Below the pieces are notes generated by a model that was not told the DNA's origin, did no database searches, and saw only the letters and a program-made list of their open reading frames with translations. A DNA stretch of 11,142 bases from Chloroflexota bacterium (GTDB lineage: Bacteria; Chloroflexota; Dehalococcoidia; SZUA-161; SpSt-899): positions 1 to 11,142 of the forward strand of contig QLUL01000022.1 in NCBI GenBank assembly GCA_018725425.1, given 5' to 3'. Below, in pieces: positions 4,625-10,877 of this stretch (within the stretch, counting starts at the first letter, position 1; each line of letters starts with the position of its first letter). A program made the translations under genes and the position numbers.

Positions 4625-6814
4625 TTATCTCCCTCCTTTCATCGAACCCCTTTTCGGAGGGAACTTTACTGCCGAAATCCTCAGCCTGAGATCACACTGC
4701 AAGCACAGCAGCGACTCTTTAGATGCTGCCTCTTCATCGTATCCCTTCTCAATCTCATCAAAGCTGTTAAGTCGCTGCCCTACAGATATGTGGGACATTT
4801 CACACCGTTGTTGGTGGGCAAAATTGGTCTTCCGCCCCAGCCAGGCTTTAGGCTCTTCAATTGGTGACAGTTCCTCATCTATAATACCACTGCCCCCAAG
4901 GTATTTGTCTATGGCAATAGCTCCTTTTCTCCCTGCGGCAATAGCCTTAATAACAGAGGCTGGCCCGGTTACAGCATCACCACCAGCGAAGACGCCCTCC
5001 CTGCTGGTAACACTGTTGGCGTTAATCTTAATATTACCTCGCTCAGTTGCCACTTGAAAGTTCTCCGGGATCTCGAGCATCTGGCCGATGGCAGCGATAA
5101 CGGTGTTATACTCTGTAATGAATTCACTGCCCTTTATGGGGACTGGGCGTCGCCTGCCGCTGGCATCAGGTTCTCCCAGTTCCATACGAATACATTGAAG
5201 TCTTAGCACTCCATTCTCATTCCATATCTTGTTTGGAGCCACCAGGTAAACAATGTTTACTCCTTCCTCTAGAGCACCATCTATCTCTTCTGTGCTGGCA
5301 GGCATCTCGGCACGAGTGCGACGGTAAAGAATAGTTACCTCTTTGCCGTCAAGCCTTAAGGCGGTGCGGGCGGCATCTATGGCAACGTTGCCGCCACCGA
5401 TAACCGCTACCCTATCTCCCAGCCTTACCCTTCGGCCTAGACTCACCTCTCTAAGGAAGCTGATAGCCTCTATCACTCCAGGGGCATCCTCCCCCTCCAC
5501 CCCCATTTTCGTTCCCAGATGCGCGCCAATAGCAAGAAAGATGGATTGATAACCCTGCTCAAGGAGGTCGTCCAAGGATTCTATTCTAGTATTAGTCTGA
5601 ATATCAACACCGACTTGCACGATCTCTTGAATCTCTGACTCCATAACCTCCCTCGGCAGGCGATATTCCGGAATGCCAACTCGCATCATACCGCCCAGAA
5701 CTGGCAGGGCTTCAAATACAGTGATCGCGTGACCTAGTTTTGATAGATAATATGCGGCAGTCAGCCCGGCCGGGCCTGACCCTACTATTGCCACTCGCTT
5801 ACCTGTTGGTGACGCCTTCTTCGTAGGACGGGCATCTTGCCCGTCATTCTTGGTGGCTATCAACCCCCGTCTTCCTTTTTTCATTTCCTCTGTGACCTCT
5901 GTGGCTATCAACCCCCGTCCCCGTTCAACGGCAAAACGTTTCAGGTTTCTTATAGCCACAGCCTCATTCACCTCATCGCGACGACAAATAACTTCGCAGG
6001 GATGATCGCAGACATGGCCAAGCACACCAGGGAAAGGAACCTTTTCCCTGATCACCGCTAATGCTTCGGAATATTTCTTTTCACTGATGAAACGAATATA
6101 ACGGGGTACATCTATCCCCGCAGGACAAGCGTATTTGCAGGGAACAAGTGCTGCTTCACGACCATTTCCCGCTTCCAATAGTCCAGCCTTGTCCTTAAGG
6201 GCACCAGTGGGACACACCTCAATGCAAGCACCACAAAAAATGCAATCGGCATCGGACAGGGAACGGTCGAAGGCAGTACCGATGTGGGTTTCCCTCCCCC
6301 TCTTTATAAAGGAGAGCACCCCCACTCCTCGCAATTCATAGCAAGCCCTAACGCATCTTCCGCAGAGGATACACTTACTCAAGTCATGCTCGAAAAGGGG
6401 ATTGCTGGCATTAACGGGAATGTCTTTGGGTCGAGTTCTCAAACGCTGCTGGGTAATCCCCAGATATTGGGCTACTGCCTGTAGTTCACAATTGAGGTTC
6501 TGGGAACACACCAGGCAATCGGGAGGATGACCGGCCAGCATCAATTCCATGGCGATGCGGCGTATATGCTTAAGTTGAGACGTTCCAGTCTTCACCACCA
6601 TCCTCTCTGTTGCTAGTGTAGTGCATGCAGCAGGTAATCCTCGCATGCCCTCAATCTCGACAACACACAATCGGCAAGCACCAAGGGGACTTAAGTCGGG
6701 GTGATAGCAGAGGTTTGGGATGTAGATTTCCGCATCTAACGCTGCCTCAAGTACCGTCTTCCCCTTTTCAGTTTTGACCTCATATCCATCAATGTTTAGT
6801 GTTATCGTTTCCAA
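4625..6814 (-). CDS. NuoG/HydA-like iron-sulfur domain fused to GltD-like FAD/NAD(P) oxidoreductase
   Basis: A 729-residue soluble electron-transfer flavoprotein. In order: [2Fe-2S] domain (Cys36, 47, 50, 64); His-Cys3 cluster (His96, Cys100, 103, 109); two [4Fe-4S] motifs (Cys148/151/154/158 and 191/194/197/201); GltD/NfnB-type N-terminal Fe-S domain (Cys226, 230, 269, 273, 277); FAD site GSGPAG (345-350); NAD(P) site GGGNVA (473-478); C-terminal LCLQC. There is no H-cluster or molybdopterin domain. Start chosen: TTG 6814 with GGAGG five bases upstream; reading further up to 6874 would only translate repeat DNA. Residues about 299-335, the linker before the FAD domain, are an in-frame insertion of repeats (REP at 5823-5845 plus a 48-bp duplication, giving RGLIAT twice). 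It is third after nuoE- and nuoF-like genes and probably forms their NAD(P)-linked partner. Substrate and bifurcation are inference. Confidence 0.85.
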   Translation of the reverse strand: METITLNIDGYEVKTEKGKTVLEAALDAEIYIPNLCYHPDLSPLGACRLCVVEIEGMRGLPAACTTLATERMVVKTGTSQLKHIRRIAMELMLAGHPPDCLVCSQNLNCELQAVAQYLGITQQRLRTRPKDIPVNASNPLFEHDLSKCILCGRCVRACYELRGVGVLSFIKRGRETHIGTAFDRSLSDADCIFCGACIEVCPTGALKDKAGLLEAGNGREAALVPCKYACPAGIDVPRYIRFISEKKYSEALAVIREKVPFPGVLGHVCDHPCEVICRRDEVNEAVAIRNLKRFAVERGRGLIATEVTEEMKKGRRGLIATKNDGQDARPTKKASPTGKRVAIVGSGPAGLTAAYYLSKLGHAITVFEALPVLGGMMRVGIPEYRLPREVMESEIQEIVQVGVDIQTNTRIESLDDLLEQGYQSIFLAIGAHLGTKMGVEGEDAPGVIEAISFLREVSLGRRVRLGDRVAVIGGGNVAIDAARTALRLDGKEVTILYRRTRAEMPASTEEIDGALEEGVNIVYLVAPNKIWNENGVLRLQCIRMELGEPDASGRRRPVPIKGSEFITEYNTVIAAIGQMLEIPENFQVATERGNIKINANSVTSREGVFAGGDAVTGPASVIKAIAAGRKGAIAIDKYLGGSGIIDEELSPIEEPKAWLGRKTNFAHQQRCEMSHISVGQRLNSFDEIEKGYDEEAASKESLLCLQCDLRLRISAVKFPPKRGSMKGGR
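5823..5845 (+). repeat. REP-like palindrome, copy 1 (inside the NuoG-GltD gene)
   Basis: GTAG followed by GACGGGC-ATCTT-GCCCGTC (sharing the G): a perfect 7-bp stem with a 5-nt loop. It is identical over 23 bp to 6850-6872 and, inverted, to 10663-10685. It encodes residues 324-331 (DGQDARPT) of the fusion protein without breaking the frame. The GTAG head is the hallmark of REP elements mobilised by RAYT (TnpA-REP) enzymes; none is encoded here. Confidence 0.9.
5853..5919. repeat. In-frame 48-bp duplication carrying the dispersed repeat
   Basis: The 19-mer GTGGCTATCAACCCCCGTC occurs at 5853-5871 and 5901-5919, exactly 48 bp (16 codons) apart, giving RGLIAT twice in the protein (300-305 and 316-321). 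The DNA between, about 5879-5910, is the second copy of the dispersed repeat of 2965-2998. The frame is kept and the insertion lies in an interdomain linker. Confidence 0.85.
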
Positions 6815-6819
6815 AATAC

Positions 6820-6824
6820 CCTCC
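6820..6824 (-). promoter_or_regulatory. Shine-Dalgarno of the NuoG-GltD gene
   Basis: GGAGG on the minus strand, 5 nt before the TTG at 6814. It supports the short start and places the repeat cluster at 6830-6894 in the untranslated gap. Confidence 0.75.
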
Positions 6825-6829
6825 TTATG

Positions 6830-6894
6830 AGTCTGGAGTCTAGAGTCTGGTAGGACGGGCATCTTGCCCGTCAACTCCAGACTCTAGACTCATG
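6830..6894. repeat. Heptanucleotide array 5, composite with a REP core
   Basis: Left arm AGTCTGG, AGTCTAG, AGTCTGG (6830-6850); right arm ACTCCAG, ACTCTAG, ACTCATG (6874-6894), which is the left arm in reverse complement. Between them sits an exact REP palindrome. The whole 65-bp block forms a long cruciform-type dyad with the REP hairpin at its tip. It fills the gap between the nuoF-like stop (6892-6890) and the ribosome site of the next gene, and the outermost heptad overlaps that stop codon. Confidence 0.88.
6850..6872 (+). repeat. REP-like palindrome, copy 2 (core of array 5)
   Basis: Exact 23-bp match to 5823-5845: GTAG head, 7-bp stem, 5-nt loop. The first G is shared with the preceding heptad AGTCTGG. 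It lies outside the coding region if the TTG at 6814 is the start. Confidence 0.9.
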
Positions 6895-8809
6895 ATGTCT
6901 TCCCCCAACTTCCAACAGGGATTGGATCCTCAGGAGTTAGCGGCTGCTCCCCACTGACCTTTGCCACCGCGTTAAACCGAGAGGGACATACATCGAGGCA
7001 GATTCCACACTTAATGCACTTGTGCTGGTCAATGACATGTATCATCCGTTTGCCGCCGGTGATGGCATCGACAGGACAGTTCCTCATGCAGATGAGGCAG
7101 CCCGCGCATTTCTCCGGAAGAATGTAAAAGGAGATAAGATTCTTGCACACCCTCGCCGGACATCGCTTCTCATTGACATGTGCTTCGTATTCCTCCCGAA
7201 AATACCTGATAGTGGTCAGCACCGGGTTGGGAGCTGTCCCACCCAGGGCACAAAGCGAGCCTGACTTAACGGCCTCACACAGCTCTAAAAGTAAATCTAT
7301 ATCCCCAGGTTTGCCACTACCCCCAGTAATGTCGGTCAGAATTTCCAGCATTTGCATTGTTCCCTCGCGACACAATACACACTCGCCACAAGATTCAGCC
7401 TGGGTGAAGGAAAGAAAGTATCTTGCCAGGTCAACCATGCAAGTTTCACTATCGGCAACTATCATACCTCCAGACCCCATGATGGACCCGGCAGCAGCCA
7501 GATGCTCATAGTCAACAGGGATGTCCAAAGTGCTTGCCGGTAGGCAACCCCCTGACGGGCCACCGGTCTGAACTGCCTTGAACTCCTTACCATCCGGAAT
7601 ACCGCCACCAATGTCATAGACAATTTGTCGCAGGGCGATGCCCATTGGCACTTCAATAAGTCCGGTGCGCACGACTTTACCGGCCAGTGCGAAGGTCTTA
7701 GTTCCCTTGCTGCGCTCTGTGCCGTAACCGGCAAACCACTCCCCGCTTTTCTGCAAGATAGCGGACACATTAGCCCAGGTCTCTACATTATTTATATTGG
7801 TCGGTTTACCTCGTAGTCCTGATGTGGCAGGGAAGGGAGGGCGAGCGTAAGGCATACCCCGCTTACCCTCAAGGGAGCGTATCATGGCCGTCTCCTCGCC
7901 ACAGACGAAGGCACCTGCTCCCTCTTCGATCTCTATATGAAAGCTGAAGTTGGAACCAAGGATGTTATCACCCAAAAGCCCATAATCCTGCATTCGATTG
8001 AGAGCAATTCTGAGCCTCTCTAAAGCCAGGGGATATTCGGCGCGACAATAAATATATCCACTAGTTGCCCCAATGGCATAAGCTCCAATGAGCATTCCCT
8101 CTAAAACAAAATGGGGGTCGCTTTCCAATAATGACCTATTCATAAAAGCACCCGGGTCACCTTCATCAGCATTACAGATAATATATTTTTCGGTGCCGGG
8201 TGCATCATGGCAGAAACGCCACTTGGTCGCGGTGGGAAATCCAGCCCCCCCCCGCCCCCTAAGCCCGGATTTGCCAATCTCCCCTATTATCTCCTCAGGG
8301 GTCATCTTTAATGCCTTAAACAACCCACTGTAACCCCCGTTGGCAATATAGTGATTAATATTTCCAGGGTCGATATAACCGCAATTGCGAAGTGCTATCC
8401 TTACCTGTGGCTTAAACATGGGCAATGCAAAAAGATTGGGGATGCCGTCAATTTCACCCTGGCCTATAGTGCAAAGAGCCAGATCCGGTCTGGGATTGTC
8501 ATTGACTATATAATCTGTTACCAGTTGGGGGACAATTTCCGGTGTAACATGGCTATAGCAGATGCGAGGCCGGCCACGCTTAGCAATATCAACCAAGGGT
8601 TCGGCATCACAGCAACCAATACAGCCCACCTCTATTACATGGGCATCTATGGCTCTCTGTTCGATCTCAGCATGGATGCGATTAAGCACATCTAATGCTC
8701 CCGAAGAGCGACCGCAGGTAGCAGTTCCAACATAAATGCGAGGCTTTTCACTATTTGCGAAAGCCTCCCATTCGGCTTTCGCATGGTGTTGTATTTCTTT
8801 AAAGGTCAT
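6890..8809 (-). CDS. NuoF/HymB-like NADH-binding flavoprotein subunit
   Basis: A 639-residue NADH:acceptor subunit of the HndC/HymB/HydB type, larger than complex I NuoF. Domains in order: a thioredoxin-like [2Fe-2S] region (about 20-115, Cys32, Cys63, Cys66/67), the FMN/NADH domain (GRGGAGFPT 185-193; CNADEGDPG 212-220), an SLBB region (about 370-430), the N3-type [4Fe-4S] site (Cys474, 477, 480, 520) and a C-terminal 2[4Fe-4S] ferredoxin (Cys568/571/574/578 and 598/601/604/608). It oxidises or reduces NAD(H) via FMN and passes electrons along clusters to partner subunits in the cytoplasm. The ATG overlaps the nuoE-like stop as ATGA, behind GGGGAGG, implying coupled translation. The extra ferredoxin domain is shared with electron-bifurcating hydrogenases and formate dehydrogenases, but no such catalytic subunit is adjacent. 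Confidence 0.94.
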   Translation of the reverse strand: MTFKEIQHHAKAEWEAFANSEKPRIYVGTATCGRSSGALDVLNRIHAEIEQRAIDAHVIEVGCIGCCDAEPLVDIAKRGRPRICYSHVTPEIVPQLVTDYIVNDNPRPDLALCTIGQGEIDGIPNLFALPMFKPQVRIALRNCGYIDPGNINHYIANGGYSGLFKALKMTPEEIIGEIGKSGLRGRGGAGFPTATKWRFCHDAPGTEKYIICNADEGDPGAFMNRSLLESDPHFVLEGMLIGAYAIGATSGYIYCRAEYPLALERLRIALNRMQDYGLLGDNILGSNFSFHIEIEEGAGAFVCGEETAMIRSLEGKRGMPYARPPFPATSGLRGKPTNINNVETWANVSAILQKSGEWFAGYGTERSKGTKTFALAGKVVRTGLIEVPMGIALRQIVYDIGGGIPDGKEFKAVQTGGPSGGCLPASTLDIPVDYEHLAAAGSIMGSGGMIVADSETCMVDLARYFLSFTQAESCGECVLCREGTMQMLEILTDITGGSGKPGDIDLLLELCEAVKSGSLCALGGTAPNPVLTTIRYFREEYEAHVNEKRCPARVCKNLISFYILPEKCAGCLICMRNCPVDAITGGKRMIHVIDQHKCIKCGICLDVCPSRFNAVAKVSGEQPLTPEDPIPVGSWGKTS

Positions 8810-9249
8810 ATGTCCTCCCCGTGAGTCTTATATCTCGCCAATACTTCCTTTGCCTTTGCCGGGGTCATTTTACTATGTACGTCTTGATCAACCAGCACTA
8901 CTGGGGCTAAAGCACAGCACCCCACGCAGGCAACCCTCTCCATGCTGAACTTGAAGTCATCTGTTGTTTGACCGCACCGAATGTTCAGTTCCCGCTCCAC
9001 ACTTTCCAGGATACGCTCTCCACCTCGTACATGGCAGGCAGTACCAAGACAAACCTTGACAATATGGTCACCGGGGCGGGTGAAGCGAAAGAGGGCATAA
9101 AAGGTAGCAACGCTATAGATATCGTTTTCCGAAATATCCAAAAATTGGCTGATTTCAGCGATGGCTTGCGGTGATAGATACCCCTCCGCCTCCTGGGCCT
9201 TCTGCAGTATCGGTATCAGGTTCGCCCTATCCTTCATAAATTGCATCAT
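8806..9249 (-). CDS. NuoE/HymA-like [2Fe-2S] subunit
   Basis: A 147-residue thioredoxin-like ferredoxin subunit that accompanies NuoF-type proteins. The four cluster ligands are in place: Cys67 and Cys72 (VCLGTACHVRGG) and Cys108 and Cys112 (ACVGCCALAP, with an extra Cys111). The N-terminal helical part (ILQKAQEAEGYLSPQAIAEIS, then SVATFYALF) is typical of the family, and the length is normal for hydrogenase- or formate dehydrogenase-associated forms. Three in-frame ATGs occur at 9249, 9246 and 9237. AGGAAG at 9257-9252 is 2 nt from the first and 5 nt from the second, so 9246 may be the real start. It overlaps the nuoF-like gene by 4 bp and is the first gene of the electron-transfer trio; a 56-bp gap filled with heptads separates it from the DUF1015 gene. 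Confidence 0.94.
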   Translation of the reverse strand: MMQFMKDRANLIPILQKAQEAEGYLSPQAIAEISQFLDISENDIYSVATFYALFRFTRPGDHIVKVCLGTACHVRGGERILESVERELNIRCGQTTDDFKFSMERVACVGCCALAPVVLVDQDVHSKMTPAKAKEVLARYKTHGEDI

Positions 9250-9271
9250 AGCTTCCTTTCAAGGGCCAAGG

Positions 9272-9320
9272 TGATAGATGATAGGTGGTAGATAACCCAT
9301 AACCCTTAACCCTTATCAAA
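9272..9320. repeat. Heptanucleotide array 6 (foldback)
   Basis: Seven units in phase: TGATAGA, TGATAGG, TGGTAGA, TAACCCA, TAACCCT, TAACCCT, TATCAAA. There is again a switch from G-rich to C-rich units. It occupies the gap between the DUF1015 gene and the nuoE-like gene, and the last units lie in the DUF1015 reading frame, whose stop codon (TAA on the minus strand, 9308-9306) is part of a heptad. Confidence 0.85.
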
Positions 9321-10877
9321 CTCCCAAAGGGGATTTGTAACCAGGCCCGCAGGGGTCTTAGGATAGAAATAGGTCGATTTCGGTGGCATCCTCACACCGG
9401 CATCCGCAACGGCAAAAAGACTGGAAATAGGCACCGGGTTGAGGAAGAACGCCAGTTGTGACATTCCCGTATCCACCTTTCGCAGGACTTCCCTTCCATC
9501 AGCGGAATACTCCAGATACTCCATCTCCTTTTCGGGGCTGTCTATCCCCAGCATCCCTCGTAGTATTACCCAATGGAGGAAGCTGACATCGAGGTCCTTC
9601 CAGGCCGGCGGTTTGTCCCCGGGGAGCATCTTATGCAGATAGGTTTTGGGGGTAAGCAAATAAAACTTACCTTGCCGGGGACGAGCCCCGGCGCTACATC
9701 CCGATAGGCCATAGAGTCCAAAGGCCATGCCTCTATCGCCCGCCTCCTTCAGAGCCTTTGCCCAAGTCGAGAGTCTGGAGTCGAGAGTCGAGAGTCTAGA
9801 GTCCCTCTCCTTGCCTCCCCGGACTCTGGACTCCAGACCCCAGACCCCAGACTCCAGACTCCAGACTCCAGACTCCAGACTCCCGGCTTCTTTTGAATAT
9901 GGAACTTCCTCGATATGGAAATAATCGGCCAGTTTTTCTTCCAGCTTCGCCATCCGCTCCGACTCGATACCCTTCACCAAACGATGCACCGGCAGCAAAG
10001 CAAGACCGGGATCCTGGGAATCGATCAGTGTCATCATCACAAAATTGAAAGGTTCATTACCACTACTGCCCGGATGAGCAGCAAGCTGCTCATCCCGATA
10101 AACGAGAGCCATCTCGTACCTATGGTGGCCATCAGCAATGTAGATAACCCTGTCGGCAAGAAACTCGGCAATCCTCCGAACCATCTCGGCCTCAGTCACT
10201 ACCCAGACATTGAAAGTTACCCCAAAATCGTCAACGGCGGTGAGCGTCGGGTCATCTAAGCTTGCCAGCAGTGGCTGAAGGCCGCCTCGAAGATCGGTTG
10301 CTGGGGTTCGGTTGTCGGTTGTCGGGGGTACGGGGTGGGGGCTGACCCCTAACCCCTGACCACTGACCCCTGACTGATTGAATATGCCCATTATAGGGCT
10401 AAGATTGGCTCGACAAGCTCTAATGAGATTGAGACGGTCTATAGACGGCTTCTTCATGGTTATCTCGGTGGGCCGAATTCGACCGGCACCCAATTTCTCC
10501 AGCCGTACCGCAGCGATAAGTCCCCAGTAGCTCCTGTGGCTATCCAGATATGGAACGCGATGCTCGGTGAGATAGAATGCCGGGTGCTGATCCCGGACCA
10601 GGACACCATCTCGGAGCCAATCATTCAGGGTATTCGCCGCGCGAGTGTATTTATTAGCTGATGACGGGCAAGATGCCCGTCCTACGGAATAATCGGGAAT
10701 GTCATCGGAAAACTCCTGGCCGAACTCAAGTCGGATGATATTATGGGGGTTTCTCCGGTGGTAGGAAGACTGCTGCTCCGGGGTGATGACATCGTATGGA
10801 GGGGTGATTACTGAGGAAAGGTCACCGATCATTCTGGCATTATAACGGATCCCGCGGAAGGGTCGAACATCTGCCAT
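9306..10877 (-). CDS. DUF1015 (COG4198) family protein carrying repeat insertions
   Basis: A conserved family of unknown function. Family hallmarks are RPFRGIRYN at the N-terminus (5-13), ITPPYDVITPEQQ (24-36), NPHNIIRLEFG (43-53), YIADGHHRYEMALVYR (246-261) and FNFVMMTLIDSQDPGLALLPVHR (277-299). At 523 residues it is longer than the roughly 400-450 usual. The excess maps to four in-frame repeat insertions: REP at residues 65-72, heptads at about 167-193, heptads at about 332-371 (7-residue period: SLESGVW, SLESGVW, GLESRVR) and a second REP type at about 394-402. All keep the frame and fall between conserved blocks, so the gene may still work. ATG overlaps the rph stop as TAATG behind GAGG, indicating coupled translation. 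Its stop lies in array 6. Confidence 0.88.
   Translation of the reverse strand: MADVRPFRGIRYNARMIGDLSSVITPPYDVITPEQQSSYHRRNPHNIIRLEFGQEFSDDIPDYSVGRASCPSSANKYTRAANTLNDWLRDGVLVRDQHPAFYLTEHRVPYLDSHRSYWGLIAAVRLEKLGAGRIRPTEITMKKPSIDRLNLIRACRANLSPIMGIFNQSGVSGQGLGVSPHPVPPTTDNRTPATDLRGGLQPLLASLDDPTLTAVDDFGVTFNVWVVTEAEMVRRIAEFLADRVIYIADGHHRYEMALVYRDEQLAAHPGSSGNEPFNFVMMTLIDSQDPGLALLPVHRLVKGIESERMAKLEEKLADYFHIEEVPYSKEAGSLESGVWSLESGVWGLESRVRGGKERDSRLSTLDSRLSTWAKALKEAGDRGMAFGLYGLSGCSAGARPRQGKFYLLTPKTYLHKMLPGDKPPAWKDLDVSFLHWVILRGMLGIDSPEKEMEYLEYSADGREVLRKVDTGMSQLAFFLNPVPISSLFAVADAGVRMPPKSTYFYPKTPAGLVTNPLWEFDKG
9674..9697 (-). repeat. REP-like palindrome, second type (inside the DUF1015 gene)
   Basis: On the minus strand GTAGC precedes GCCGGGG-CTCGT-CCCCGGC, a perfect 7-bp stem with a 5-nt loop. 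Head and hairpin geometry are those of the GACGGGC repeat, but the stem bases differ, so it looks like a sister subfamily. It encodes about residues 394-402 (CSAGARPRQ), between GLYGLSG and KFYLLTP, in frame. Confidence 0.8.
9765..9883. repeat. Heptanucleotide array 7 (17 units, inside the DUF1015 gene)
   Basis: A 119-bp stretch holds 17 consecutive 7-nt units with no phase shift. It starts AGTCGAG, AGTCTGG, AGTCGAG, AGTCGAG, AGTCTAG, passes through less regular units, then reads GGACTCT, GGACTCC, AGACCCC twice and AGACTCC five times. The two halves are reverse complements in style, forming a foldback. It encodes about residues 332-371 and is open in the gene's frame. Confidence 0.93.
10301..10377. 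repeat. Heptanucleotide array 8 (11 units, inside the DUF1015 gene)
   Basis: Eleven units in perfect phase over 77 bp: CTGGGGT, TCGGTTG, TCGGTTG, TCGGGGG, TACGGGG, TGGGGGC, TGACCCC, TAACCCC, TGACCAC, TGACCCC, TGACTGA. There is a G-rich to C-rich switch at the centre. It encodes about residues 167-193 of the DUF1015 protein, a Gly/Ser/Pro/Thr-rich stretch unlike the rest. Confidence 0.88.
10663..10685 (-). repeat. REP-like palindrome, copy 3 (inside the DUF1015 gene)
   Basis: Exact reverse complement of the 23-bp copies at 5823-5845 and 6850-6872. It encodes residues 65-72 (VGRASCPS) in frame, between FSDDIPDY and NKYTRAANTL. The same palindrome is read in opposite codon phases in different genes (DGQDARPT versus VGRASCPS). 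Confidence 0.9.

Follow-up and report, generated by a model that had tools for sequence, protein, structure and literature searches.

In the stretch of Chloroflexota DNA analyzed here (the window, 11,142 nucleotides in full), one 23-mer, GTAG+GACGGGCATCTTGCCCGTC, occurs three times without a mismatch, twice within protein genes and once in a gap. This locus raises the question of whether such a hairpin is a mobile palindrome that has entered translated genes and, if so, how it spreads, or whether the repeated residues are ordinary coding sequence. The three exact copies announced in a preliminary description were recovered at their places (Table 1) and none of 200 dinucleotide shuffles of the window reached three exact 23-mers (mean 0.00). 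Folded as single-stranded DNA, the element (REP-1) forms an 8-bp stem with a 3-nt loop (GACGGGCA-TCT-TGCCCGTC) and a free GTAG ahead. The 7/5/7 geometry proposed earlier holds for a sibling hairpin at 9674-9697, where it starts one base after GTAG, and not for REP-1. Three of the four clear copies had been described as lying in coding frame, and this was borne out, those at 5823 and 10663 and the sibling being in conserved open reading frames and that at 6850 in a gap.

The copy at 5823 lies between the Pfam domains Fer4_20 and Pyr_redox_2 of a single open frame and is part of a 24-residue stretch that is absent from both GltD-like orthologues compared, those of G013 and G014. The copy at 6850 is upstream of the conserved start of the GltD-like protein, and the 71-nt fold around it has a z of -8.3. 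The DUF1015 gene, whose nearest named relatives among the 120 listed are from Dehalococcoidia, carries four in-frame inserts absent in 6/6 aligned relatives: REP-1 at 10663 (+33 bp, ends approximate), two heptamer arrays, and the sibling, here class 2, as a 27-bp gap in the relatives. No target duplication was visible at the class-2 insert in the alignment with the six. The sibling is a real element, belonging to a family of 12 genome places (up to 3 mismatches) that shows a paired stem change, from GCCGGGG/CCCCGGC to GCGGGGG/CCCCCGC; the orthologue comparison covers the window copy only, of the 12, and another copy is within a 316-codon frame on contig C4.

Two minor observations concern the same genes. 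At 5860-5935, the GltD-like insert contains GACGGGGGTTGATAGCCAC as a repeated word, as well as CTCTGTGACCTCTGTGGCTATCA, which recurs near 2967-2998. In the DUF1015 gene, a near-perfect palindrome, GATGAGCAGC-AA-GCTGCTCATC, is present at 10070-10100; its residues are largely common to congener G013 and it was for that reason not counted as a further element.

Table 1. Features of the window and, in the last two rows, genome-wide locations of the dispersed REP-1 copies
Feature	Position	Strand	Remarks
Host gene, GltD/NuoG-like oxidoreductase	4628..6817	-	domains Fer2_4, Fer4_20, Pyr_redox_2; orthologues in G013, G014
REP-1 copy, GltD-like gene	5823..5845	+ (gene on -)	exact match; read as DGQDARPT
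Outer palindrome, GAGTC-type heptamers	6836..6891		REP at apex; fold of 6826-6896
REP-1 copy, gap between GltD-like and next gene	6850..6872	+	exact match; tip of heptamer palindrome
Host gene, DUF1015 protein	9306..10877	-	four in-frame inserts absent from aligned relatives
Class-2 REP, GTAGC + GCCGGGG-CTCGT-CCCCGGC	9674..9700	-	27-bp insert, DUF1015 gene
Heptamer array, GAGTC type, inverted arms, no REP	9770..9895		in frame, DUF1015; uninterrupted counterpart
Second heptamer array, TCAGGGG/CGACAAC type	10284..10376 (limits approximate)		in frame, DUF1015
REP-1 copy, DUF1015 gene	10663..10685	-	exact match; read as VGRASCPS
Hosts of the 18 intragenic copies			GltD-like, DUF1015, trpF, trpD, carB (2), rpoC, uvrD, pycB/oadA-like, ispG (2), glmS, ftsY (2), dnaE (2), panC, polA
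The 13 non-intragenic copies			window 6850; C1 6246, 7102, 9791, 16103, 17154; C76 three; C146 492, 1010; C321; C301

Genome-wide family and linked transposase

The draft genome to which the window belongs (1,518,579 bases in 342 contigs, 81% complete) was searched for both hairpin types. REP-1 is not confined to a few copies: 38 places were found, 15 of them perfect, in a count bounded at three mismatches. With the loop left free, the core occurred 26 times and the loop was always ATCTT; the reversed pattern gave no occurrence in the draft. Seven array copies (four on C146 and three on C334, possibly one array counted twice) were set aside, leaving a dispersed multi-copy family of 31. Eighteen of these are in open frames of conserved genes, a copy being called intragenic when conserved domains or alignment were present on both sides of it in one open frame, by which disrupted genes would be under-counted. 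The other 13/31 are extragenic, between genes or at gene ends. At the positions 492 and 1010 of C146 no gene was recognized, and for three genes of C1 (trpD, trpB-like and purF-like) the stop codon is the TAG of the REP itself. Against a rough coding share of 0.84 in a 216-kb sample, 18/31 falls short of random placement, and it is much higher than in REPs as reported, which are mostly intergenic. Among the 38 places no inverted pair was found within 400 bp, near neighbors sharing orientation, and a REPIN (inverted doublet) was on that ground rejected. On C76 (L184, 2949-3048), three REP variants with a GATGGGC stem lie downstream of a BFN_dom gene in a direct array (38-39 bp); the flanking words, AGTGATTC and ATCAAC, are present at other REP copies as well.

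A Y1/HUH transposase gene beside the hairpin, anticipated by the preliminary description, is present on contig C146. It is the only Y1_Tnp gene of the draft (152 codons; PF01797, over cut-off), and its neighbors are a ruvX-like gene and, immediately upstream, an array of REPs repeated directly in one orientation with a 43-bp period and running to the contig end. No REP copy was seen on the other side of the gene. The same array opens contig C334, where an alaS-like gene comes next, for which reason the two contigs probably adjoin; the names ruvX-like and alaS-like, as well as NuoF-like, are what we take these sequences to be. The best PDB match of the protein is the REP transposase TnpAREP 4er8 (E 4e-7), to whose HUH (HLH) and Tyr regions its stretches MPDHLHFI and LRYMIENPV align. 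Among 24 related proteins at E 1e-25 or better, three bear the name REP-associated tyrosine transposase or RayT, and identity reaches 87% in the closest that is full-length. An IS200/IS605 element was considered and rejected, tnpA being single in the genome and beside the REP array, not in a multi-copy mobile unit. Of 63 loci of RAYT relatives fetched, 32 were examined, and 7 of these had perfect-stem GTAG hairpins within 500 bp; against a background of 0.06 per kb, this supports a RAYT-REP link mildly at best. The GTAG family of 38 places, the Y1_Tnp gene beside an array of its own REP and the relationship to 4er8 identify the system as RAYT-REP with high confidence, and the earlier proposal that GTAG plus a hairpin is a RAYT signature gains support from them.

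Insertion sites and reading frames

Orthologues of seven REP-bearing genes (DUF1015, trpD, trpF, dnaE, ftsY, rpoC and GltD-like) were aligned, the other intragenic cases resting on Pfam or PDB matches. The REP-encoded residues were absent from the aligned orthologues of all seven, which came from the same genus and the same family. The trpD gene is exactly 33 bp longer than those of G015 and G017, and comparison with the solved enzyme 9ucw gives an 11-residue gap; trpF has extra sequence at the REP relative to G012 (ends approximate). Both REP sites of dnaE are empty in 4/4 congeners. In ftsY, the REP pair is inside a single insert that is absent from G012-G014, and G011 has a different heptamer insert there. 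At the rpoC site, REP and array occur together here; G012 and G013 have only an array, G011 has a different one and G014 has no array. Along RpoC of this genome and its congeners (L200-L205), several insertion hot spots were observed, with palindromic or heptamer sequences differing per congener at the same protein site. Near residues PDQIVSCHCERSEAIS of rpoC (L020) there is also an insert, CHCERSEAIS, found in this genome's RpoC only, which is presumably the translation of another widespread repeat (GTCATTGCGAGCGAAGCG type).

The 18 intragenic copies are read in five of the six frames, as DGQDARPT (6), GRASCPS (4), LTGKMPVL (4), QDGHLARH (3) and RTGILPV (1). REP-1 is stop-free in five of six frames, its sole stop being the TAG of GTAG, which makes it unusually tolerable inside genes. 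That TAG has been lost in 6 of the 18 copies, comprising all three in the stop-bearing frame (now CAG, CAG and CAA) versus 3/15 elsewhere (chance 0.025); the loss in the stop-bearing frame appears non-random, which is suggestive only, though, as the three copies are in neighboring genes and may share descent.

The open frame, kept at 18/18 intragenic copies, is what would be expected if the residues were ancestral coding sequence, palindromic by chance or by convergent selection. Identity among copies read in five frames is not explicable by coding constraint, however, and with the gaps in orthologues this refutes coding coincidence for the aligned genes, so that the probability left to that explanation is negligible. 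The same 18 open frames speak against an artefact of assembly, in which repeats would have been misjoined into genes, as do the congeners' separate assemblies, in which the corresponding rpoC, ftsY and dnaE sites carry similar inserts; moreover, the DUF1015 protein clusters as two sequences whose longest contig measures 11,861 bases and not 11,142, which may reflect a second assembly. Fragmentation and incompleteness of the draft, judged from the assembly and not from reads, lend some weight to misjoining, which is nevertheless very improbable.

Heptamer palindromes and the spread of copies

Period-7 arrays are frequent in this genome: 39 were detected in the 216-kb sample of 40 contigs (L140-L179) and none in shuffled sequence, and periods 5, 6, 8, 10 and 11 gave 0-1 arrays each in the same sample. 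Their units vary (GAGTCAA, CTTAAAA, GGTTCAC, AATTTGC and others); several arrays, in frame within genes, have inverted units after them. In the window, period-7 signal was observed at about 820-865, 1575-1620, 9770-9895 and 10284-10376.

We infer that the RAYT is the mover of the copies, with cut sites next to the hairpin and purifying selection as a filter, in a RAYT-REP (REPtron) system where single REPs have probably been pasted both into genes and between them. The enzyme would recognize GTAG and the 8-bp hairpin on single-stranded DNA, cut nearby and paste single REPs of roughly 27-33 nt at new sites. Copies that break a gene would be lost, and those surviving would be either intergenic or located in protein linkers and loops, with a net insert that is stop-free and a multiple of three. 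The heptamer palindromes in which many REPs sit likewise represent in-frame inserts at tolerant sites. Against this reading stand the small number of dispersed copies, the TAG losses described above, the composites treated below, and the absence of this REP from the Y1_Tnp loci of G015 and of the exact core from four congeners.

An alternative is that the REP is mostly a passenger of these palindromes, which would spread or expand by slippage, template switching or some other enzyme, carrying REPs with them. Consistent with this, 12 of the 31 REPs are within 30 bp of a period-7 array versus 2.2% of sampled positions, an enrichment that treats copies as independent, which composites are not, and that comes from an array finder that missed two visible cases (window 6850 and C283 6398). 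Moreover, ftsY, dnaE (2) and rpoC contain a REP plus array composite that is 89-97% identical over 94-102 bp, and these composites look, from their sequences, as if they had spread as larger units; the abundant arrays also occur free of REP, as at the rpoC site of G012 and G013. By contrast, 19/31 copies are more than 30 bp from a detected array, including those in both window genes, trpF, trpD and uvrD, and the genome has an intact RAYT beside a REP array of its own, making it unlikely that the REP is mostly carried by the palindromes.

For the RAYT-REP system, the ends of the moving unit were sought in the flanks of the copies. In eight copies, the hairpin is followed by AAC/T and the TAG preceded by C/TG, C/TGG or similar, with GTAG in seven and ATAG in one, and the uninterrupted GAGTC array at window 9770-9895 represents the empty form. 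The flanks of these eight copies are those expected from a 28-nt unit with a C/T cut at either end; descent of all eight from a single composite is as plausible. On its right side the trpD insert departs from C/T, and it has TGATCC upstream and AAATG downstream in common with the array beside the RAYT gene; C/T is not matched by the class-2 insert of DUF1015 either. A bolder reading, which we regard as doubtful, is that coding sequence is the main dispersed habitat, that the RAYT would paste 28-nt units (T-GGTAG-hairpin-AAC) at C/T in heptamer palindromes and that the composites would travel through dnaE, ftsY and rpoC as a larger in-frame mobile palindrome. No description of such a two-layer intragenic element, a REP nested in a travelling heptamer palindrome, was found among the matches listed in the open-licence literature. 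Just after the trpD stop (L017, 9791-9813 and 10129-10151), a 57-bp duplication (98%) of the internal trpD copy was observed, in which 35 bp from the coding sequence of trpD itself come after the REP; one-ended transposition or template switching between REPs is offered as a reading.

Known systems and related genomes

Rickettsia palindromic elements are translated in frame within many core genes. The inserts described here work like them, being palindromic, in frame and spread over many core protein genes, and differ in host lineage, in the linked RAYT and presumably in sequence. The Rickettsia parallel drawn in the preliminary description holds for in-frame palindromes, whereas intragenic REPs are not confined to Rickettsia, according to PMC3733652. 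There, Di Nocera and colleagues (2013) report intragenic GTAG and CGTC REPs in several species, with hosts such as DNA polymerase I, repair genes and dnaE in R. conorii; the REPs they describe are predominantly intergenic, and dimers or groups make up over half of those within genes. Both sets share REPs in coding sequence and the TAG of GTAG as stop of neighboring genes; unlike in that account, 18/31 copies are intragenic here and no inverted dimer was found. The principle of intragenic GTAG REPs has thus been known since 2013, and what is unusual here is the extent, the essential targets, the single REPs and the heptamer nesting.

Among REPtrons, the closest in form is REPSm of Stenotrophomonas maltophilia (PMC8266576), which shares with REP-1 the GTAG and perfect hairpin, 23 nt, an 8-bp stem, a 3-nt loop and a single tnpA beside REPs. 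Recognition of the GTAG hairpin and cleavage at CT are reported there as measured for other TnpAREP enzymes, CT being the dinucleotide cut by the enzymes of E. coli and S. maltophilia and, for a Marinomonas enzyme, one of two. Unlike other REPtrons, the present family has ca. 31 dispersed copies, more than half in genes, and a RAYT array that is direct and in one orientation. The 31 dispersed copies are low for a REP family, for which over 100 are given as usual in PMC2817692. According to Bertels and Rainey (2011, PMC3116915), REP doublets are the mobile unit and singlets are expected to be immobile remnants; the association of REP with RAYT is common to both systems, and the bare single inserts of 27 and 33 bp with clean empty sites set the present one apart from the inverted doublets described there. 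Heptamer repeats known from other bacteria, TAACTGA of Beggiatoaceae (PMC4679880) and GGGAATC of Xanthomonas (PMC4692102), are likewise dispersed period-7 arrays with some inverted units; here, units are many, inverted arms frequent, arrays in frame in core genes and REPs nested in them. Among the matches listed, no open-licence paper on RAYT/REP or on heptamer repeats in this lineage was found.

The usual view places REPs outside genes and takes REPINs to be what moves, whereas more than half of the dispersed single REPs here are in translated core genes. Clean empty sites in relatives provide before and after states, with which it becomes possible to test directly what moves, where it ends and how selection filters it. 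In this way, short palindromes can extend central enzymes, RNA polymerase and DNA polymerase III among them, by new stretches.

The distribution of REP-1 outside its own genome was also surveyed. In 400 genomes drawn from the phylum, the exact 23-mer occurred in the window's own genome only, and the exact core was not found in four congeners, whose genomes are 53-68% complete. G015, a member of the same family outside that draw, has eight exact REP cores, none in a long frame and two in frames of 100 and 110 codons; all eight look intergenic, as judged on open frames of at least 100 codons and not on homology. This REP was not seen at either of the two Y1_Tnp loci of G015 (L187, L188). All eight cores (L192-L199) are preceded by an ACGCCT(G/A)ACCTACG word, which makes the REP of G015 part of a longer interspersed repeat.
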